Shown here: piece after piece, positions 26,784 through 37,894 of the stretch
Layout: the number at the start of each line of letters is the position of its first letter
Numbering within the stretch: the first letter of the stretch is position 1
Notes under the pieces: model-generated
Told to the model about the DNA's origin: nothing
The model's input: the letters and a program-made list of their open reading frames with translations, nothing else
Databases searched by the model: none
Assembly (NCBI GenBank): GCA_021817255.1
Contig: JAKAVO010000001.1
Coordinates: 1-42,535, forward strand
DNA length: 42,535 nucleotides
Reading direction: 5' to 3'
DNA from: Thermoplasmata archaeon
GTDB lineage: Archaea > Thermoplasmatota > Thermoplasmata > Thermoplasmatales > Thermoplasmataceae
Made by a program: the position numbers and the translations under genes

Positions 26784-26799
26784 GTAATTGGAAATCCTG

Positions 26800-27807
26800 A
26801 TGAGTTCTGAGCTTTTTGGAGTGCTGAAAGATTTTGGGTTAACCAACTATGAGGCCAGAGTCTTGGAAGCCCTCCTTCTCAATGGTTCCCTTAATCCTGG
26901 AGAAATTGTTACAGCAGCAGGCATACCGCAACCTAGAGTTTATGACATTATTGGAAAACTCAAAGAGAAGGGAATGGTGGAAGAAAGCCCAGGCAAAAAG
27001 AAGGTGTTTAGGGCAAGGGATATTGAGGCTTCTTTAGGAATGAGGGTTAAGGAATTAACAGACGGAATTGCGAAAATTAAGAAGGTTGTGGATGAAACCA
27101 GAACCAGTAGTTTGAGCGCTAAACCCTATCTGTGGCTAATGGAAAATGAAAGAGTCATTATAGATGAAATGAAAGAAAGAATAGATAATGCAAAAGACGA
27201 GATTATAATATCATGCACAAAAATGAGGCTTATCAAATTGCGTTCTAATATACTGAAAGCCATTTCCAGGGGAATTTCCGTAGCCATAGTCATTTTTCCT
27301 GAAGTGGATAAGAAATTGCTTGACGAGTTCAGGGGCGCCCTAATAAAAGTGAGAAGTGGGATGTCTTCTGAGGTTATCATAACAGATAGGGAAATAGCAA
27401 TAATTAGCATTGGACAAACTATAGCCAGAAGAGATTATGCAATCTTGAATGACGAGGATGAAATCACACATATAACGGGTTATTTTTTTTACCATACTTT
27501 GTGGAAACCAGCTCAATTTTTTTCAACGCCTGCCAGCATTTCTAAATTGAGATTCAGATCAATGTGGCTGTTATGCGACATTTTGAATTTTACATACAAC
27601 ATACCAAAACAGGAGGTTAGATGCAAAATAAATGGGTGGAGGGCAGGAAAGAAAATCATCCTGAACGGGGTGGTTAGCAAAATCGAGATAGTGGATGGGC
27701 TAAAGCACTCTATTTATGTTTCAAGAGGAAAGAAAAGCTATTCAGTTGGCGGGAAAACCGCAAGAGATGAAGATATTGCCCTGGAAAAAATAGAAATTTT
27801 AGGATAA
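26800..27807 (+). CDS. TrmB-family sugar-responsive transcriptional regulator
   Basis: A 335-residue archaeal regulator. Residues about 1-80 form the TrmB winged helix (LTNYEARVLEALLLNGSLNPGEI, then GIPQPRVYDIIGKLKEKGMVEE as recognition helix and wing); a coiled-coil linker follows, then a PLD-like middle part and a C-terminal sugar-binding domain. Known TrmB proteins repress or activate maltose/trehalose transport genes according to bound sugar. Here the neighbours are an alpha-glucosidase, a GH13 enzyme and a MalEFGK-type transporter. ATG 26800 is preferred over the TTG at 26788 on TATA spacing. Confidence 0.88.
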   Translation: MSSELFGVLKDFGLTNYEARVLEALLLNGSLNPGEIVTAAGIPQPRVYDIIGKLKEKGMVEESPGKKKVFRARDIEASLGMRVKELTDGIAKIKKVVDETRTSSLSAKPYLWLMENERVIIDEMKERIDNAKDEIIISCTKMRLIKLRSNILKAISRGISVAIVIFPEVDKKLLDEFRGALIKVRSGMSSEVIITDREIAIISIGQTIARRDYAILNDEDEITHITGYFFYHTLWKPAQFFSTPASISKLRFRSMWLLCDILNFTYNIPKQEVRCKINGWRAGKKIILNGVVSKIEIVDGLKHSIYVSRGKKSYSVGGKTARDEDIALEKIEILG

Positions 27808-27995
27808 GATCTTAATTTCCAGCATTGCGGGATGAAATTATAAAAATATACTACTCAAAGTTGCTTAAATTTTAAATATTTAGTTTAAATATAAATTAAT
27901 GTTAATGTTAATGTAGATTTGGCATTTACGATTTCTAATAAATATCATTTACTATTTTTAAAAAAAATTATATTCAAGATAAAACTTAAGTGTGA

Positions 27996-29894
27996 ATGGA
28001 AATAAAATGTTGGTCAAACAGCGATTATTTGAGATTAAATGTAAATGGAAACAATCCAATCGTCAAGTTTGAAGGGCAAGAAGAATCCTTAATAAAGCAT
28101 GATTTGGAGAAGGATGGCTTTGGAATTAATGAAACACCGGATGGATTGGCAATATTATCATCTCTTCCTCTAGATGCACATATTCTTGGGCTCGGAGAAA
28201 GGGCTGTTGGAATGGACAGAAAGAGAAAGAAGCTTGTTTCTTTCAACAGGGATCCGGGAGGATACGGCAGAAATAGCGATCCTCTTTACATATCAATACC
28301 ATTTTATTTTCAGATTGTAGATGGGAAAACAATAGGAGTATTCATAAATTATCCTGGTGAAGTCATATTTGATTTTGGAGTTGAAATATACAACAAGACG
28401 AAAATAACTGTAAAATCAAATTCTGTTGAGTTCTTCATATTTACTGGCAATTCACCATTAGAGGTACTGAAGGCTTATTCAAACCTGACTGGAAAATCAT
28501 TTCTCCCGCCAAAATGGAGTATTGGCCACGCTATTTCAAGATACACTTACTATCCATCCGATGTTGCTGTGGAAGTTGTAAGAAGATACAAGGAATTTCT
28601 TCCGGTTGAATCAATATACCTGGATATACACTACATGGAAGATTATAAATTATTTACATGGAACAACGAACGCTTTGGGGACGGTACAGATTTCATAAAA
28701 AAAATTCACAGCATGGGCGTTAAAATAATACCAATAGTTGATCCTTCAATAAAGGCTGAGCAGAATTATGAGGTATTCAAAAGAGGAGTAGGTTCATATG
28801 TGGAAGACAAAAACAGAGATATTTATACAGATAAAATGTGGCCAGGGAAATCAGTTTTTCCTGATTTTTTAAATAAGAGAGGTGAAAACTTCTGGAAAGG
28901 AGAAGTTGAGGGATGGATGAAGCAGGGTGTTGACGGGATATGGCTGGACATGAATGAACCAACTATCCTTTCAGAAGACCATATGTTCGATCCCGAATCG
29001 CTTCATAAATTGGATAACGGGAAAACCGTAAGCCATAAAAGTGTTAGAAATGCCTATCCTTACCTTCAGGCAAAAGCAACTTTTGAGGCCATGGAAGTTA
29101 AAGAAAAAAGCCCTTTCATTCTTAGCAGGTCCGGATATTCTGGCATACAAAAGTATGCTGCAATTTGGACGGGGGATAATATGTCCACCTGGGATGATGT
29201 GAAGCTCCAGATTTCAATGGTCACCAGCATTTCCATATCTGGCATTGGGGTCGTTGGTTGTGACCTTGGAGGTTTCTTTGGAAGCAGTTCTCCGGAACTG
29301 ATTGCGGCATATTACAGGATGGCCCTCCTGTTTCCACTGTACAGAAACCACAAATCAATGGATGGAAATGACCAGGAAGTGTTTTTGCTTTCCAGCAGGG
29401 CAAAGAAAGATATTGAAGCAAGCGTAAAACTCAGGTACAATTTCTATGACCAGATTTTCAGCACAATATATTTCTCCCACAAATATGGCCTGCCCACAGT
29501 TTCCCCAATTGCATTTTATAATTTCAGCGACAATGAAAGTTTTTTCATTGAGGATGAATACTATCTTGGAGATAATATAATATATGCACCGCAAATTAAA
29601 GAAAATGAAACTGTGAGGACTGTTTACCTCCCGGAAGGAAAATGGTATGATTTTGAGAGAGAGAAAATGATAGATGGTGGGAGCTATTTCAAAACCGAGA
29701 ACAAATATCCCCTATATATCAAGAACAACTCATGCTTCCTATATAAAGGAGATGCAATAGTTGTCGGTTCGGGAAGATTCAGTCTTTTCTTGAATGAAAA
29801 AGAATATAGCATTATAGCAGAAAAAGGCGGGGCCACAGTTACTCCAGACGAATTGCGTGCAATAGTTGTAAATGTCCCGCAAAGCAGCCTATGA
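27996..29894 (+). CDS. malA: Alpha-glucosidase, glycoside hydrolase family 31
   Basis: Cuts terminal alpha-linked glucose from malto-oligosaccharides. The 632-residue protein has an N-terminal beta-sandwich domain, then the catalytic barrel with YLDIHYMEDYKLFTWN, the nucleophile D318 in WLDMNEP and the acid/base D394 in TGDNMSTWDD, and C-terminal beta domains. There is no signal peptide, so it works inside the cell. The gene symbol follows the archaeal MalA enzymes. It overlaps the next gene by four bases (ATGA), giving a two-enzyme operon. The 188-bp upstream gap is A/T-rich, with three tandem TTAATG units at 27896-27913. Confidence 0.93.
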   Translation: MEIKCWSNSDYLRLNVNGNNPIVKFEGQEESLIKHDLEKDGFGINETPDGLAILSSLPLDAHILGLGERAVGMDRKRKKLVSFNRDPGGYGRNSDPLYISIPFYFQIVDGKTIGVFINYPGEVIFDFGVEIYNKTKITVKSNSVEFFIFTGNSPLEVLKAYSNLTGKSFLPPKWSIGHAISRYTYYPSDVAVEVVRRYKEFLPVESIYLDIHYMEDYKLFTWNNERFGDGTDFIKKIHSMGVKIIPIVDPSIKAEQNYEVFKRGVGSYVEDKNRDIYTDKMWPGKSVFPDFLNKRGENFWKGEVEGWMKQGVDGIWLDMNEPTILSEDHMFDPESLHKLDNGKTVSHKSVRNAYPYLQAKATFEAMEVKEKSPFILSRSGYSGIQKYAAIWTGDNMSTWDDVKLQISMVTSISISGIGVVGCDLGGFFGSSSPELIAAYYRMALLFPLYRNHKSMDGNDQEVFLLSSRAKKDIEASVKLRYNFYDQIFSTIYFSHKYGLPTVSPIAFYNFSDNESFFIEDEYYLGDNIIYAPQIKENETVRTVYLPEGKWYDFEREKMIDGGSYFKTENKYPLYIKNNSCFLYKGDAIVVGSGRFSLFLNEKEYSIIAEKGGATVTPDELRAIVVNVPQSSL

Positions 29895-31756
29895 GTGATA
29901 GTGGGCTAAAAAAATCAATCTTATTCTCTATCCCCTACGAAGAAGGTGATGAGTCTTGCTATTTAACCGGGAATTTTAATTGCTATGGAGATGGAAGCAT
30001 TGAGCTCTTAAGGACTGAAGATGGAAAAACGTGGGAAACACGGGTTGGCCTTTTCCCTGGAGCGTATGAATACTTCTATTCGATTAATCAGTACAGAAAG
30101 GTGAATGAAAAGAGGGAAAAAATTGTAAGGCCGATCAAGGCAGGCATCAGGCAGGAAACCTTTTTCCATGATCCTTATTCTGACCACTTTTTTTCAAAGA
30201 CCGGAGGATTTAGCGTGATAAGATGCATTACCCCGCCTTTAACCAAGTTGGTGAAGATAGTACAAAAAGGGCAAAGGAAACATCTGCCTGATTTTAAATA
30301 TAATTCGAAAAACTACAATCTCTTTGAATTCATCACCAGAAGTGAAAGTGATTATACATTCCTGGCCGATGATGCCACTAGGCATGGCCCATATGCAATG
30401 CCTTCGTTAAATGAAGAACCCAAGTCAGCGAATGTTATTTATCAGATATTTCCTGACCGGTTTCGAAGAAAGGGGAAATTGAAGGAAGGTTTAGCCGAAT
30501 GGAACCAGAAGCCTGGCAAAGGTACCTTTTTTGGTGGGAATATAGAAGGGATAATTGAGAAGATTGATTATCTTCACGAATTTGGAATTGACCATGTTTA
30601 TCTGACACCATTTTATAAATCAGCAAGCAACCACAGGTATGATATCGACGATTATTTCGAAATTGACGAGAAATTTGGCACAATGAGCCAACTAGTTTCG
30701 CTTTCAAAAGAACTTGAAGGTGCGGGCATTTCAATGATTCTTGATATGGTATTCAATCATACGTCCATATTTTTTCCACAATTCAGAGTGGAACTGCCCG
30801 GGAAATTGGCTCATGAAAAAAGCTGGTATAAATTCATTTCAGAAACTGCCCGGGGAATGAAAATCAGGTGGCCTGTGAAAGATGGAGAAACTTTGGCCCT
30901 CTACGAAGCTTTCAAGGATTATGGCGGAATGCCAAAGCTTAACCACAAAAATGAAGAGGTCAAGAATTTTATGCTGAACGTGATGGAATATTACGCGGCA
31001 AAACTGAATGTATCATTCTTAAGATATGATGTTGCGGAATCTATAAATTTAAACAGCATCAAAGATATATTCTCGAAGTTTTCTGAAAGGTTTCCAAAGA
31101 TCGGGCATATAGCAGAGATATGGTGCTTATCAGGAATATTCTTTGGCGAAGGGCTTTACACCTCTTTCATGAACTACCATTTAAGAGGGTTGATTATTTC
31201 CTTGATGAAAAAAGAAATCGGGCCAAGTAGGATTAACAGGGAATTATTAAACATGAGGTTTGTCCTTGGAGATAGGGCCTACGGAAAAATGATGAATATC
31301 TTAGGTTCACATGATACGGCAAGAATTAAAACCATGCTTGAAAGCGAAAATCTCTCCCTGGCTTCCTATGCTCTTCTTATGATCATGGATGGCATGCCTT
31401 GCATTTACTATGGAGATGAATTTTCTATGGAAGGTGGGCCTGATCCTGATTGCAGAGGCACGATTGACTGGATAAACACTAAGAGTGATTTTAATGAAAA
31501 ATTCAGAAGCATTGTAAAATTCAGGAAAAAGAACCAAGCTTCCTATGACGGAATAATAAAATTTACAAGGGAAAAGAATGGATTAATTCGGGTTCACAAG
31601 TATTCATCGCAACAAACCATAGAGCTTGGGTTAAATCTCACAGACAGGGCAATTCATTGTGAAAGGGCAGAAGAAGATATCACTAATTCAGAACAAAAGA
31701 ATGTCCATTCCGGCATTATTGGGCCAACTGAATTTTTCCTCAATGCAAGAAAGTGA
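29891..31756 (+). CDS. GH13 cyclomaltodextrinase / neopullulanase-type alpha-amylase
   Basis: A 621-residue alpha-amylase superfamily enzyme. An N-terminal starch-binding-type beta domain (about residues 1-110) precedes the barrel. The four GH13 regions are present: DMVFNH, FLRYDVAES with nucleophile D380, HIAEIW with acid/base E409, and GSHDTARI with D475. MPKLN before region II is typical of the cyclomaltodextrinase/neopullulanase/maltogenic amylase subgroup. No signal peptide is seen, so it acts in the cytoplasm, opening cyclodextrins or trimming imported oligosaccharides for the alpha-glucosidase. Translation is coupled to malA by the ATGA overlap. Confidence 0.9.
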   Translation: MSDSGLKKSILFSIPYEEGDESCYLTGNFNCYGDGSIELLRTEDGKTWETRVGLFPGAYEYFYSINQYRKVNEKREKIVRPIKAGIRQETFFHDPYSDHFFSKTGGFSVIRCITPPLTKLVKIVQKGQRKHLPDFKYNSKNYNLFEFITRSESDYTFLADDATRHGPYAMPSLNEEPKSANVIYQIFPDRFRRKGKLKEGLAEWNQKPGKGTFFGGNIEGIIEKIDYLHEFGIDHVYLTPFYKSASNHRYDIDDYFEIDEKFGTMSQLVSLSKELEGAGISMILDMVFNHTSIFFPQFRVELPGKLAHEKSWYKFISETARGMKIRWPVKDGETLALYEAFKDYGGMPKLNHKNEEVKNFMLNVMEYYAAKLNVSFLRYDVAESINLNSIKDIFSKFSERFPKIGHIAEIWCLSGIFFGEGLYTSFMNYHLRGLIISLMKKEIGPSRINRELLNMRFVLGDRAYGKMMNILGSHDTARIKTMLESENLSLASYALLMIMDGMPCIYYGDEFSMEGGPDPDCRGTIDWINTKSDFNEKFRSIVKFRKKNQASYDGIIKFTREKNGLIRVHKYSSQQTIELGLNLTDRAIHCERAEEDITNSEQKNVHSGIIGPTEFFLNARK

Positions 31757-31855: not shown

Positions 31856-32977
31856 TTAATTTATTGCATTCTGCAGATATTCTTCCTGATATTTCTTTTT
31901 GCCATACCTGTATATCAGGCCACCGGTATTTGTCTCGAATAGATACAGGGATTTTTCATCGACTGAAACCATTGATCTGTCTCCAAGCACATGCCTTGAA
32001 TTTACCACGTCCTGCCTTATTATTGTTTCCCCATTTTTGGTTTTAAAGTATTCGTATATGCTCTTGCCAAGATTTTGAACAAGGTTTAACTCCACTGGTA
32101 TGCCGTCGTCTCCAAGCTGCACTTCCTCCGGCCTTATTCCAACTTTAACATCTCTTGGATGTTCCATTTCAGTTTTAATATCATTCATTTTGATTGTATA
32201 ATCTTCAATTTTCAAATATGTGTTCCCTTTCTCCACATAAAGTTCCCCTGGCAAAATATTCATTGCAGGATCACCAAGAAATGTGGCCGTGAATGTGTCA
32301 ACAGGCAGGTCGTAAAGATCGTTGGGGTTTCCCATCTGGACTATCCTGCCATTATTCATAAGGCAGGCCCGATCCGCAAGAGTGGTGGCTTCTATCTGAT
32401 CATGAGTAACGTATACAGTCGTGGTGTTGAATTCTTTTTGCAGCCTTTTGAGCTCCACCCTCATATGCCCTCTGAGTTTTGCATCAAGATTGCTTAGCGG
32501 TTCGTCCATCAGGAAAAGGCTGGGCTCCCTGACTAGTGCCCTTGCCAGTGCAACTCTCTGTTTCTGCCCGCCTGATATTTCACCTGGCCTTCTGTCCAAC
32601 AGATCTGAGAGGCCCATTGTTTTTGCTATTTGTTCTGTCTTTTCTTCCATCTCGCTCTTCGGCATTTTCAAAATTTTTAATGGAAAAATAATATTTTCCC
32701 TTACTGTCATAAATGGATAAAGAGCATAATTCTGGAATACCATGGATATATTCCTCAGTTTTGGCGGAAAATTTGTGATCTCCCTTTCGTCAAGAAATAT
32801 GTGACCGCTGTCCACTGTTTCCAGCCCGGCAATCATCCTTAGGGAAGTTGTTTTTCCACAGCCGCTTGGTCCCAATATGACAAAAAACTCACCCTCCCTA
32901 ACTTCAAGGTTTATACCGAGAACACCCACATTTTTTTTAAATACCTTCACAACATCCTGCAAAACGAGTTTCTCCAT
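31856..32977 (-). CDS. malK: MalK-type sugar ABC transporter ATP-binding protein
   Basis: The ATPase that powers the sugar importer. The 373-residue protein has Walker A GPSGCGKT at 36-43, Q82 in the Q-loop, the signature ISGGQKQR from residue 134, Walker B with DEP at 158-160, and the switch H192. A C-terminal OB-fold-like regulatory domain (about residues 240-373, with KVGIRPEEVQL) is typical of the MalK/UgpC group, which often serves several sugar transporters. It has its own promoter, 93 bp after the permease gene, with the same 15-bp inverted repeat as the binding-protein promoter. Confidence 0.95.
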   Translation of the reverse strand: MEKLVLQDVVKVFKKNVGVLGINLEVREGEFFVILGPSGCGKTTSLRMIAGLETVDSGHIFLDEREITNFPPKLRNISMVFQNYALYPFMTVRENIIFPLKILKMPKSEMEEKTEQIAKTMGLSDLLDRRPGEISGGQKQRVALARALVREPSLFLMDEPLSNLDAKLRGHMRVELKRLQKEFNTTTVYVTHDQIEATTLADRACLMNNGRIVQMGNPNDLYDLPVDTFTATFLGDPAMNILPGELYVEKGNTYLKIEDYTIKMNDIKTEMEHPRDVKVGIRPEEVQLGDDGIPVELNLVQNLGKSIYEYFKTKNGETIIRQDVVNSRHVLGDRSMVSVDEKSLYLFETNTGGLIYRYGKKKYQEEYLQNAIN

Positions 32978-33029
32978 GCACTATCAATTATAGTTATATT
33001 ATTTAACTTATAAGAGCTTTTCTAAATTG

Positions 33030-33044
33030 ACTATTTTAGGTAGT
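33030..33044. promoter_or_regulatory. Inverted-repeat operator upstream of malK
   Basis: ACTATTTTAGGTAGT is an imperfect palindrome with ACTA/TAGT ends. It is centred 27 bp upstream of the TTATAAG TATA element (centre near 33010) of the malK promoter. It matches the site before the binding-protein gene at 13 of 15 positions. The place upstream of TATA suits an activator or a repressor that blocks TFB. Confidence 0.6.
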
Positions 33045-33070
33045 ATAAGTGATTGTTTAAAAAAATGAAT

Positions 33071-33988
33071 TTATTTATACGTAGAGAGGCTGAATCCTGA
33101 GACCAGATATCTCTGAAAGACAAAGAACAGTATGAATATTGGTATTCCCATTAAAACGGCAAATGCTGAATATGTGCCGTAATTTATAACTATATCTCCC
33201 TGGGACACATAGTAAAGCCCTATTGCCATTGTGTATAAGCTTTTTGACGTGATGAATTGTCCGGCCAGGGCGTAATCTGTGTAGGGCCCCATAAATGCAA
33301 TTAATAGTGCAAATATGATGACCGGTTTGGACATTGGCACAAGTATTCTGAACAATGCAGACCGCCTGCTCAGGCCGTCCATTTGGGCTGCTTCCTCATA
33401 ATCTTTCGGCAAACTGTCCACATAATTCTTTATTAAATATGAGGAATATATCAGCGCACCGGCTGAGTATGGAATTATCAACCCAATGTATGAGTCGAGA
33501 AGATGCAGATGCGCAAACATGAAGTAATATGGTATTACCATCATAGTGAATGGAAATAGCGTGAGGATAAGCATCATATAGAGCAACACGTGTTTCATCG
33601 GTATATTGAACCTGGAAAGGGCTAGTCCTGAGGTAATAGACAACAGCACTCCGACCAGTGTTGAAACTCCTGTCAGTATGAGTGTGTTTTTGAGCCATAG
33701 AAGAAATGGATGGTGGTAAATAATGCCAATGTAATTAGAAAGGGTAAGGTGGGATGATGGAATTAAATCCCCTAAGCTTGCCTGTGCCAGTGAACCTATG
33801 CTATTGAGCGATGTAATTACCACATAATATATGGGAAATACAGCAAAAAGGGCAAACATGATCAACACTATGTGTGACACTATTCTTTTTGCTATTCTCA
33901 TCCTCTTGTAGTGGTTGTTTAATTTATACATGCTTTCAGAGCTGTTTTGCGAGGCATTTTTGTTTTTATTTGAAAGTTTGTTTTCCAT
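33071..33988 (-). CDS. malG: Sugar ABC transporter permease (MalG-type)
   Basis: A 305-residue inner membrane permease with six predicted helices after a basic N-terminal tail. The EAA loop, which contacts MalK, reads YEEAAQMDGLSRRSALFRIL. Start and length fit MalG-type permeases. It lies ten bases after the MalF-type gene in the same operon. Confidence 0.93.
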   Translation of the reverse strand: MENKLSNKNKNASQNSSESMYKLNNHYKRMRIAKRIVSHIVLIMFALFAVFPIYYVVITSLNSIGSLAQASLGDLIPSSHLTLSNYIGIIYHHPFLLWLKNTLILTGVSTLVGVLLSITSGLALSRFNIPMKHVLLYMMLILTLFPFTMMVIPYYFMFAHLHLLDSYIGLIIPYSAGALIYSSYLIKNYVDSLPKDYEEAAQMDGLSRRSALFRILVPMSKPVIIFALLIAFMGPYTDYALAGQFITSKSLYTMAIGLYYVSQGDIVINYGTYSAFAVLMGIPIFILFFVFQRYLVSGFSLSTYK

Positions 33989-33997
33989 TATTTCACC

Positions 33998-34903
33998 TCA
34001 ATCCAAAATTTTCATCATCTTTGTATAGTGGTTTGCTACAACAACAAACACGAAGAGCATTACAATTGATATGACTGCATATGCAGCCCCTAGAGAGTAG
34101 TTAGAATAGGAAAAAGCCTGCAGGTATGAATATGTTATGAGAATTTCCGTAGAAATTCCCGGCCCTCCCCCGGTCAGCAGGAATGGAATGTAAAAGTTGT
34201 TCCATGTGAATATGAAACCGAAGATAGTGATAAATGCGATCTGCCTCCTCAACAATGGCAGTGTTACGTGCGCCAATGTTCTGATGGGCCCGTAACCGTT
34301 TATCTCTGCGGCTTCATACAACTCCTGCGGTATGCTTTGAACTGCTGATGTGTATACGAAGGTGTAATAGGGGAACGATAGCCAGAAATTTACAAGTATT
34401 AATGAAATCATCGCATATTTTGGAGATGTCAGCCAGTCAAGTGATTTGAAGCCAAGAACATTTAGGAATTCGTTTGCGACTCCACCAGTGTATGCAAGCA
34501 TGTTTGACCATACCAGAATGGTTATGAACGCTGGGAATGCCCACGGGAAAAGGTACATTGTCCTGTATATTGTTTTCCCCCTCATCTTCTTTTGATTCAT
34601 AATCAGGGCAAGGAGAAATCCTGCTGGAACCATAACTACAGTGCTTCCAATGCTCCATACAAGAGTGTTGCCAATAACTGTCCAGAGGTCTGAACTGGTG
34701 AACACATATATAAAATTCGCCAACCCAACATACCCATATTTGAAAAAGTGAACTGAATTAAAATCCGTAAGAGAATAGTATACACTTTCAAAAATAGGGT
34801 AAAAATCCAGAAAAGCCAGAACAATTATTGCTGGCAGAACATATATTATGCCCTTCCATTCCAGCTTTTTCTTTTTCACTACATAATCTTCTGATTCTAC
34901 CAT
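33998..34903 (-). CDS. malF: Sugar ABC transporter permease (MalF-type)
   Basis: A 301-residue permease with six predicted helices; the first follows a KKKKLEWK basic tail. The EAA loop reads YEAAEINGYGPIRTLAHVTL. It lacks the large extra periplasmic domain of the enterobacterial MalF, as is usual for archaeal and Gram-positive versions. It follows the binding-protein gene after 34 bases and precedes the MalG-type gene. Confidence 0.93.
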   Translation of the reverse strand: MVESEDYVVKKKKLEWKGIIYVLPAIIVLAFLDFYPIFESVYYSLTDFNSVHFFKYGYVGLANFIYVFTSSDLWTVIGNTLVWSIGSTVVMVPAGFLLALIMNQKKMRGKTIYRTMYLFPWAFPAFITILVWSNMLAYTGGVANEFLNVLGFKSLDWLTSPKYAMISLILVNFWLSFPYYTFVYTSAVQSIPQELYEAAEINGYGPIRTLAHVTLPLLRRQIAFITIFGFIFTWNNFYIPFLLTGGGPGISTEILITYSYLQAFSYSNYSLGAAYAVISIVMLFVFVVVANHYTKMMKILD

Positions 34904-34937
34904 AATGGATCACTTTAAAAATTTAAAAAAAAAGAAA

Positions 34938-36434
34938 TTATTTTTTCTTTTTTGAGATGTATACATAACTTGCTACGCCTGCAACCAGTATGACTGCCAC
35001 AACCATTGCAATGATCTCATATACGCTTATTTTTAGCGGTGTGGATGGGGTTGCTGAAACCTGGTTGATTTCAGTAATTACTGCCTTCTGGAAATCATTC
35101 ATTACCTGAGTCACGTTATTTGTCCCGTTGTCATACAGATTCCCGACGTAGGTGTGGAAGTTTGGCCAGTAGTAGTTCATATTGACAAAGCCAGGCTGGG
35201 GCATTGTGTGGTTTTCCTGATCGAGCCAGCCTTTGATGAGTGGATCATTGTTAGAGTGGGATGCTATATAATTGCCTGCAGATGTGAGAGATGGAAAATC
35301 CCCTGCACGATCGAATAGATGTACCTGGGCAGTCATATTGGTCTCAACCTGTATGAATTTTAATGAAGCCCATATCTGGGATGGCGTTATCCCACTTGCC
35401 TGTGGTGATGATATGAAGTATCCTATTGACCCCCATATGGGTGTTGGCCAATGATTTGTCACATTATTGAATGGCAAAGCAGTTACATGCAGATTTGGGC
35501 CAAGGTAACTTGTATACGTGCTCTGATCCCACGGGCCATCGATCATGAAGGCACTCTGGTTGCTTTCGAATAAGTTATACTGCTGTGTCATTGAAGTAAG
35601 CCCAGTTGGGCTTATTTTGTAGTTATATGTCAGGTTATAAAGGAATGAAATTGCATTAATGTCAGAGGTTGAATTTAGCACAGGAAGCTGTTTGGAATTA
35701 AATAGCGTGCCTCCGAAGGCTGGGAACCAGGCAGCCGATCTATAGCCGGAATCTGTTCCTAAACCATATGCCAGGCCCCAAACTTTTGTCGGTTGGCCTG
35801 CTGGGTTTAGAGTTGTGTTGTGTGTGACATTTTCGGAATCCTGTATCAACTGGTAAATATTTTTTGGTGCTGTTTTGACAAATTCACTGTTGTAATAAAG
35901 GCCCACACCATTTGTGTTTACAGGTATTCCATATAGTGTGTTGTTGGAACTCCATGCAGTAACTGTTCCCTTGCTGAAGCTGTTGATATATGTCTGATTC
36001 AGGTATTTGTTTAAGCCAAGAACTGTCCCACTGGCATAAAGAACTCCTGCATTGTCACTGCTATCCCTGTAAACATCAGGTGCCTTTCCAGCGTGGGCAG
36101 CACTAACGTATTGCGTTGCGGCTACTCCAACTGCAGGGCTGTCCTGCACTGTTACATTTGGATATAGACTCTCAAAATAAGCCAGGGACTGGTTAAAAAC
36201 AGTAGTTTCTCCACCCGGAGAGCCCGATCCCCACACGCTGATCGTTACCGTTGATCCTGTTGAAGCATTTGTGGCTACCAGCGAAGAAGAATTGCTGGCC
36301 GGGTTCCCGTATACTGAAACAAAAGCAGTCAATATAAAAAGCCCAACTACAAACAGAACCAAAATCTCTTTAAACAATTTTCTCGAACCGCGAGCGGTCC
36401 TATTTTTAATCTGAAGGTTAATATTCTTATTCAT
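34938..36434 (-). CDS. malE: Extracellular sugar-binding protein, doubly membrane-anchored
   Basis: The ligand-binding subunit of the importer. The 498-residue protein has a basic start and an N-terminal hydrophobic segment (about residues 22-44), then a Ser/Thr/Asn-rich stretch, the family 1 binding-protein domain (VTISVWGSGSPGG at the beginning, YYWPNFHTYVGNLYDNGTNNV near the end), and a C-terminal membrane helix followed by KKKK. The hydrophobic C-terminal tail, instead of a lipid anchor, is common in Thermoplasmatales and Sulfolobus binding proteins. Many N-glycosylation sequons are present. Sugar specificity is inferred from neighbours (maltose/maltodextrin). Confidence 0.9.
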   Translation of the reverse strand: MNKNINLQIKNRTARGSRKLFKEILVLFVVGLFILTAFVSVYGNPASNSSSLVATNASTGSTVTISVWGSGSPGGETTVFNQSLAYFESLYPNVTVQDSPAVGVAATQYVSAAHAGKAPDVYRDSSDNAGVLYASGTVLGLNKYLNQTYINSFSKGTVTAWSSNNTLYGIPVNTNGVGLYYNSEFVKTAPKNIYQLIQDSENVTHNTTLNPAGQPTKVWGLAYGLGTDSGYRSAAWFPAFGGTLFNSKQLPVLNSTSDINAISFLYNLTYNYKISPTGLTSMTQQYNLFESNQSAFMIDGPWDQSTYTSYLGPNLHVTALPFNNVTNHWPTPIWGSIGYFISSPQASGITPSQIWASLKFIQVETNMTAQVHLFDRAGDFPSLTSAGNYIASHSNNDPLIKGWLDQENHTMPQPGFVNMNYYWPNFHTYVGNLYDNGTNNVTQVMNDFQKAVITEINQVSATPSTPLKISVYEIIAMVVAVILVAGVASYVYISKKKK

Positions 36435-36493
36435 AAAAATTACACCTTATTTGGATATTATTAAACTTGTTTTTAAATTTTTCTCATGTCTAT

Positions 36494-36508
36494 ACTATCT
36501 TAAGTAGT
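36494..36508. promoter_or_regulatory. Inverted-repeat operator upstream of malE
   Basis: ACTATCTTAAGTAGT is an imperfect palindrome, centred 26 bp upstream of an AAATTTAAAA TATA element (36471-36480) of the binding-protein operon. It matches the malK site at 13 of 15 positions and sits at the same distance from TATA. The TrmB-type protein encoded at 26800 is the obvious candidate ligand. It also lies upstream of the divergent MFS gene and could serve it. Confidence 0.65.
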
Positions 36509-36619
36509 GTTTATTAATATGTTGATTTTGTATGGCTCATACCTATGGTAAAATAATAGGAGTTGGGCATTTCTATGCAATAAGCTCACGATAATTTGGA
36601 TATAATACGGGGAATGGCG

Positions 36620-37894
36620 ATGAAAGGCAGAAATACAAGAATTTATTTATTTGCAAAAATAAAGGAGTACACTGTTTCATCAGATGATACGGTAAAATCT
36701 ACAGCAAACCTTTCTATTACCGACGGATTATTCTGGTCAATATATTCAAGCTTGACTGTTCCTTTTATAATTCCCCTCTCAATTTTCCTGCTCGGAAAAA
36801 ATGCTCCGGTTGGATATATTACAGGATTTCCAGTTCTTGTAGTGCCTCTGTCGCAGTTTCTTTCCAGACACTTTTCCTCTAGATCCAAAGATCTAAAAAA
36901 GCTCACTATCTATACCACCCTGTTAGACAGGATTTTATGGGTGCCAGTGGTTTTTCTGGTATTTGTCCACGGATATGTGCTGACATACGCCTTATTGATA
37001 TTATTGCTTTCAATCAGAACATTTTTTGCTTCCTTTAGTGGAACCACGTGGACATTATGGGTGCCGGGCGTAATTCCAGCCCAAAACCGATCGGGCTATT
37101 TTGCTTTCAGAAATTTCGTGATGAAAATATTTTCCCTGGTTGGTTATGCATTAGCCCTTGGGATTTTCCTAAGGATCGGGAATGAAGAAATAGCTTTCAT
37201 CCTTGTTTTCCTATTAGGAGCCCTTGCATTCTCTTCCATATCCTTGCTTGTAATGAGCAGGATACATTCTTACTCAATCCCGGATTCCGAGAAAGCCATA
37301 AATCATAATAAATTGCCATATAGGTTCAGGAATCTCGTAATATATTCCATAATTTGGGGGATCGGCTACAGCATGATTCTGCCTTATTTTCAACTCTACC
37401 TGATTTCTTCAAAATATTTGGGGCTGAGTGAGAGTTTCTATACAATAATATACATAACAATATCTATTTCTTTTATTGCTTCACAAATTCTATGGGGGAA
37501 GCTCGCCGCAAGATTTGGAAATTTTAGCATTGTTGCGATTAACTCAGCAGCCATTATAATTTCCGCAGTTTTAATTCCATCAATTCGCAGCTCCAGCCTG
37601 ATTTTTGTTCCGGCTGTATTGTACGGAGTAGGGCAGTCCGGCATTACATTGTCTCTGTTCAATGAGATGTTGAGCAGGTCAGATTCCTCAAGAATAAATT
37701 CCATATCAGTCTATAACATGGCCCAGTCTATTTCTATGGGCATTGGCCCAATTTTAGCCAATTTCCTTGTTGAAGCATTTAATGTCAATATAGAATTTGT
37801 ATTTGAATTATCAACTGCTTTTATGGCGTTGTCAATTGTTTATTTTATTGTTGGTGATTTGATTGGTGGGAACAATGCCCGGGCTAATGTGTAG
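36620..37894 (+). CDS. MFS transporter
   Basis: A polytopic membrane protein of about 424 residues with roughly twelve hydrophobic helices in two halves, joined by a cytoplasmic loop around residues 215-235. The frame extends to a TTG at 36596 and an ATG at 36614, but CGGGG is spaced seven bases from the ATG at 36620, which is preferred. Substrate unknown; its divergent position next to the sugar transporter operon, with the shared operator between, suggests a sugar or a product of sugar breakdown. T-rich sequence at 38011-38024 follows. Confidence 0.8.
   Translation: MKGRNTRIYLFAKIKEYTVSSDDTVKSTANLSITDGLFWSIYSSLTVPFIIPLSIFLLGKNAPVGYITGFPVLVVPLSQFLSRHFSSRSKDLKKLTIYTTLLDRILWVPVVFLVFVHGYVLTYALLILLLSIRTFFASFSGTTWTLWVPGVIPAQNRSGYFAFRNFVMKIFSLVGYALALGIFLRIGNEEIAFILVFLLGALAFSSISLLVMSRIHSYSIPDSEKAINHNKLPYRFRNLVIYSIIWGIGYSMILPYFQLYLISSKYLGLSESFYTIIYITISISFIASQILWGKLAARFGNFSIVAINSAAIIISAVLIPSIRSSSLIFVPAVLYGVGQSGITLSLFNEMLSRSDSSRINSISVYNMAQSISMGIGPILANFLVEAFNVNIEFVFELSTAFMALSIVYFIVGDLIGGNNARANV

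Follow-up and report, generated by a model that had tools for sequence, protein, structure and literature searches.

A conserved set of predicted TrmB-type operators in the mal gene cluster of a Thermoplasmatales archaeon

The mal gene cluster and its candidate operators

Two promoters of a maltose-type uptake cluster, those of malE and malK, carry nearly the same 15-bp element, which raises the question of whether they answer to a common regulator and, if so, in which direction. Both lie in the window (the whole stretch of 42,535 nucleotides that was analysed), which is part of the genome of an acidophilic archaeon of the genus Cuniculiplasma, in a cluster ordered trmB - GH31 - GH13 - malK / malG malF malE - divergent MFS transporter, where malE and malK are both encoded on the minus strand. 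The features are as follows.

26788..27807, plus strand: trmB, TrmB-family sugar-sensing regulator (PF01978 wHTH and PF11495 effector domain)
27850..27864, plus strand: predicted third operator, ACTACTCAAAGTTGC, between trmB and the GH31 alpha-glucosidase gene
27996..29894, plus strand: GH31 alpha-glucosidase, malA-like (PF01055, 2e-91)
29891..31756, plus strand: GH13 alpha-amylase / cyclomaltodextrinase-like protein (domain and NCBIfam searches)
31856..32977, minus strand: malK, ABC transporter ATPase with MalK OB domain (domain search)
32980..32994, minus strand: possible second malK site, ACTATAATTGATAGT, 2 bp ahead of the ATG and across the predicted transcription start
33007..33014, minus strand: candidate malK TATA box, CTTATAAG, judged from sequence
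33030..33044, minus strand: predicted malK operator, ACTACCTAAAATAGT read towards malK (plus-strand letters ACTATTTTAGGTAGT)
33071..33988, minus strand: malG, permease (PF00528)
33998..34903, minus strand: malF, permease (PF00528)
34938..36434, minus strand: malE, solute-binding protein (weak NCBIfam MalE match, 6.7e-11; operon position; orthologues in relatives)
36470..36477 (plus-strand coordinates), minus strand: candidate malE TATA box, TTTAAAAA, judged from sequence
36494..36508, minus strand: predicted malE operator, ACTACTTAAGATAGT read towards malE (plus-strand letters ACTATCTTAAGTAGT)
36596..37894, plus strand: MFS transporter, divergent from malE (domain search)

A preliminary description of this DNA had reported that the malE and malK 15-mers agree at 13 of 15 positions and are placed upstream of their TATA boxes, and both observations stand: the mismatches fall only at positions 6 and 10, the distance from centre to centre is 27.5 bp at malE and 26.5 bp at malK, and the motif read in the direction of the genes is ACTACT-N3-AATAGT. 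Overlooked at that time were the palindrome across the malK start (32980-32994) and the operator before the GH31 gene at 27850, which was found by scanning the other intergenic regions of the cluster and at which no clear TATA box was seen. Since malE and the MFS gene have their intergenic region in common, the malE operator could serve the MFS gene too. As for autoregulation, no operator is visible upstream of trmB in the window, and the relative G010 has one weak site there (9/12). The true start of trmB may be an in-frame ATG near the annotated one, and a Pfam search with the malE product gave no match.

Conservation of the sites across the genus

The strongest evidence for the predicted sites is their conservation in relatives. 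The malE site is conserved in 5/5 readable promoters of the genus (that of G006, with 64 N, was unreadable and was left out), being kept as ACTACTN3AATAGT in G010, L030, G011 and G007, 14-16 bp upstream of a TATA box that reads TTTATC or TTTATG in the relatives and has an equal offset from the operator. At malK the site is conserved in 6/6 promoters. In G010, L030, G006, G007 and G011 it occupies -65 to -67 relative to the start codon, with a proximal half that is degenerate in the last three of these genomes; the relatives also have a TATA-like element at an unchanged offset, in most cases with a BRE-like GAAA before it. Throughout Cuniculiplasma the end of the operator is 14-18 bp from the TATA box at both genes, and the surrounding sequence has diverged across the genus while the motif and its distance to the TATA box stay fixed. 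The third site reads ACTAC-N4-AGTTGY in the window and in five relatives, as ACTACTTTGAGTTGT (G010), ACTACTCAGAGTTGT (G011), ACTACTAAAAGTTGT (G003), ACTACCCTGAGTTGC (G007) and ACTACATCAAGTTGC (G006), and is degenerate in L030 (ACTACTTGAAGTATG); its second half is consistently unlike that of the malE and malK sites.

Over 18 promoters of malE, malK and GH31, positions 1-5 (ACTAC) and T12 are invariant and G14 is present in 17, while the second half of the site varies. The predicted operator is thus asymmetric, with one anchor half-site, the distal half being near-invariant. When the half-site was permuted (n = 90), ACTACT came out best, with 14/18 promoters at 10/12 or better, and the next five half-sites by total score, among the permutations listed, reached this in at most 3/18; there is some circularity in the test, as malE and malK supplied the motif, and GH31 is less affected. 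The pattern first proposed for scanning, ACTAN2TTARGTAGT, proved too narrow, since the central TTAR varies between species.

The divergent MFS partner of malE is retained in G006, G007, G010, G011 and L030. Throughout the genus, and in other families of the order as well, the cluster genes stay grouped, though rearranged, and most relatives whose contig is long enough have trmB within the cluster or immediately ahead of malE. In L040 and L041, which belong to other families of the order, the linkage to trmB is present and the site also precedes malE.

The regulator and known TrmB operators

The protein encoded at 26788 matches PF01978 (1.3e-19) and PF11495 (1.8e-38), both above the curated cut-off, and a profile of 18 homologues aligns over nearly all of Pyrococcus furiosus TrmB (PDB 3qph; E 6e-32). 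Its Y52-D53 and G322/E328 align to Y50-D51 and G320/E326 of P. furiosus TrmB, which contact DNA and bind sugar, respectively (PMC4158304), and all four residues are invariant in the 18 homologues. The cut-offs of the NCBIfam equivalogs (TrmB, halo TrmB, TrmBL1) were not reached, the best score being 74 bits versus 600, so that the protein is a member of the wider family and not a Thermococcales TrmB equivalog. We also observed that the mal TrmB is 37-39% identical to its counterpart in G006, G007 and G011, with MalF at about 73%; the regulator may have diverged fast, or may have been replaced, with the operator retained.

The sites are very probably operators of this TrmB (26788-27807), whichever the sign of its action. 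The conservation of the sites, their rarity in the genome (see below) and the linkage to trmB give good support to the earlier suggestion that a shared operator defines a mal regulon under the TrmB at 26.8 kb. In the mechanism that we infer, a TrmB dimer would bind ACTACT-N3-A(A/G)T(A/T)G(T/C), anchored on the near-perfect distal half-site, at three promoters that together make up a mal regulon, those of malEFG, of malK and of the GH31 alpha-glucosidase/amylase operon, and a sugar of the maltose type, bound in the effector domain, would alter the affinity of the dimer.

The preliminary description had set the sites apart from TATCAC-N5-GTGATA, and by sequence they do differ, but that motif is the wrong comparator: it is the TGM site of TrmBL1/Tgr, likewise a palindromic TrmB-family operator of sugar genes with position-dependent activation and repression, which we rejected as a model since its sequence and spacing do not fit the malE and malK sites. 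The true TrmB operator at the Thermococcales trehalose/maltose (malE) operon is TACTN3AGTA (PMC4158304). With the Thermococcales system (P. furiosus, T. litoralis) the present one shares the regulator family, the malE operon as target and, at the level of the consensus, the palindrome core and the N3 spacer: ACTACT-N3-A(A/G)T contains the TACT-N3-AGTA core, but each site in the window departs from that core at 1-2 of its 8 positions, and the exact TACTN3AGTA occurs in 0/3 of them. It differs in that conservation here is highest in the outer arm, ACTA...TAGT, and that the predicted site is asymmetric. The TrmB proteins of Halobacterium (motif TACT-N7-8-GAGTA) and Haloarcula hispanica belong to the same family and activate from an upstream position, but have a longer spacer and a gluconeogenic regulon as opposed to mal uptake. 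In the literature searched we found no TrmB operator or mal regulon of Thermoplasmatales. The conserved set of predicted TrmB-type mal operators is real, and it is a variant arrangement, in a new lineage, of a known kind of operator. The set supplies a specific consensus together with three promoters and a candidate regulator.

Activation or repression

For TrmBL1 and for the halobacterial and Haloarcula TrmB proteins, activation has been found from upstream sites, and repression from sites that cover BRE/TATA or lie downstream (PMC4158304, PMC4706686, PMC10817205). The Thermococcales TrmB site at malE overlaps BRE/TATA and represses (PMC4158304), whereas the Cuniculiplasma site lies upstream of these elements. 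With the operator just upstream of the BRE, TrmB at malE and malK would most likely be an activator that helps to recruit TBP and TFB, a reading towards which we lean slightly and which borrows the positional rule of other lineages, namely that of TrmBL1 and halobacterial TrmB.

The second reading, a substantial possibility that we hold to be somewhat below even, is that TrmB represses from these operators, its footprint reaching BRE/TATA or the second malK site blocking the start, and that maltose releases it, as in Thermococcales; malE is repressed by Pyrococcus TrmB (PMC4158304), and the operator abuts the TATA box in L040 and L041 and overlaps the start codon in Thermogymnomonas (L034). 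However, in Cuniculiplasma it ends before the TATA box at a distance that keeps it clear of the usual BRE, and the palindrome across the malK start of the present genome, which a repressor could use, is a weak site because it is lost as a palindrome in G010.

Rarity of the sites and a second TrmB

Genome-wide counts were made by pattern searches and are lower bounds, since the MAG is 78% complete; in its 1.32 Mb, the strict pattern ACTAYYN3RRTAGT occurs in exactly 2 places, the malE and malK sites, and its reversed control in 3. The looser ACTAYN5RTAGT occurs in 6 places, of which the mal cluster has 3 (one being the palindrome at 32980-32994) and another sugar cluster linked to a TrmB gene has 2; the P value for 5/6 falling within those 21.8 kb is about 7e-9, for clusters that were picked after the hits were known. 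Many copies unrelated to sugar genes, which would have spoken against a mal regulon, were looked for and were not found in this genome.

The second sugar cluster brings in another candidate regulator, a second full-length TrmB paralogue (G000:C51), whose gene is followed by ACTATGAATCATAGT and then by a GH1 glycosidase gene; ACTATGGCACATAGT lies between the SBP_bac_5 transporter operon of that cluster and a divergent gene. These two sites (L152, 5894-5908 and 12894-12908) are perfect palindromes, ACTATG-N3-CATAGT. Binding of the mal sites by another regulator such as this paralogue is improbable: the two TrmBs do have the invariant PQPR-x-YD recognition segment in common and the sites near C51 carry the same outer arms, ACTA/TAGT, but their inner bases differ from those of the mal motif ACTACT-N3-AATAGT, and the gene linked to the mal sites is the mal trmB.

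A chance likeness of two A+T-rich promoter segments is extremely improbable, for although a loose match carries no meaning by itself, the pattern at 3 mismatches being no more frequent in the window (4) than in shuffles (3.4), and although across 61 genomes the strict pattern does not outnumber its reversed control and is no high-copy element, both exact genomic matches fall at malE and malK and the orthologous promoters of diverged species keep the site at a fixed spacing, which contradicts chance.

Related sites in other clusters

Related ACTAY-N5-RTAGT palindromes are present at promoters in the clusters of other TrmB paralogues, where ACTAT- or ACTACT-type sites lie over the start codon of, or before, the solute-binding protein gene. 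In 243 kb around the paralogue genes there are 9 sites versus 5 in the reversed control, so that what supports them is their placement at promoters and their recurrence in relatives, not their count. An ACTAC-type site also precedes korAB (2-oxoacid:ferredoxin oxidoreductase) in G003, G006, G007 and G011 (L083:3027, L082:3000, L084:3002 and L090:145) and is absent from the present genome and from G010. A wider role of the mal TrmB at korAB was considered and set aside, given this absence and the extra TrmB paralogue that the four site-bearing genomes also carry. In G006 and G007, ACTACC-N3-GGTAGT is found before a second GH31 alpha-glucosidase gene beside D-glyceraldehyde dehydrogenase (L085:3019, L086:3024). 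The korAB, second GH31 and paralogue sites together suggest that TrmB proteins share an operator code and that regulons have expanded.

We tentatively propose, as a possibility worth pursuing though one that we would not yet bet on, that the Thermoplasmatales TrmB paralogues use one code, with invariant ACTA...TAGT arms and inner bases that are particular to each paralogue (ACTACT/AATAGT in the mal case, ACTATG/CATAGT in the GH1 cluster), and that the mal operator has shifted its promoter position among lineages, lying over the start codon in Thermogymnomonas, against the TATA box in another family of the order and roughly a helical turn farther upstream in Cuniculiplasma, a shift that would turn TrmB from a repressor into an activator of orthologous operons. 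Such a change of sign of the regulator-operator pair between lineages may have occurred, since the operator abuts the TATA box in L040 and L041 and covers the start codon in L034. Orthologous promoters with repressor-type and activator-type operator positions make the archaeal positional rule testable, just as the paralogue sites do for the TrmB recognition code. At L034:9836-9850, L153:11670-11684 and L155:8487-8501 the operator lies within or beside the opening codons of the solute-binding protein gene (ACT ATG ... AGT AGT), so that operator and N-terminal codons would constrain each other there.
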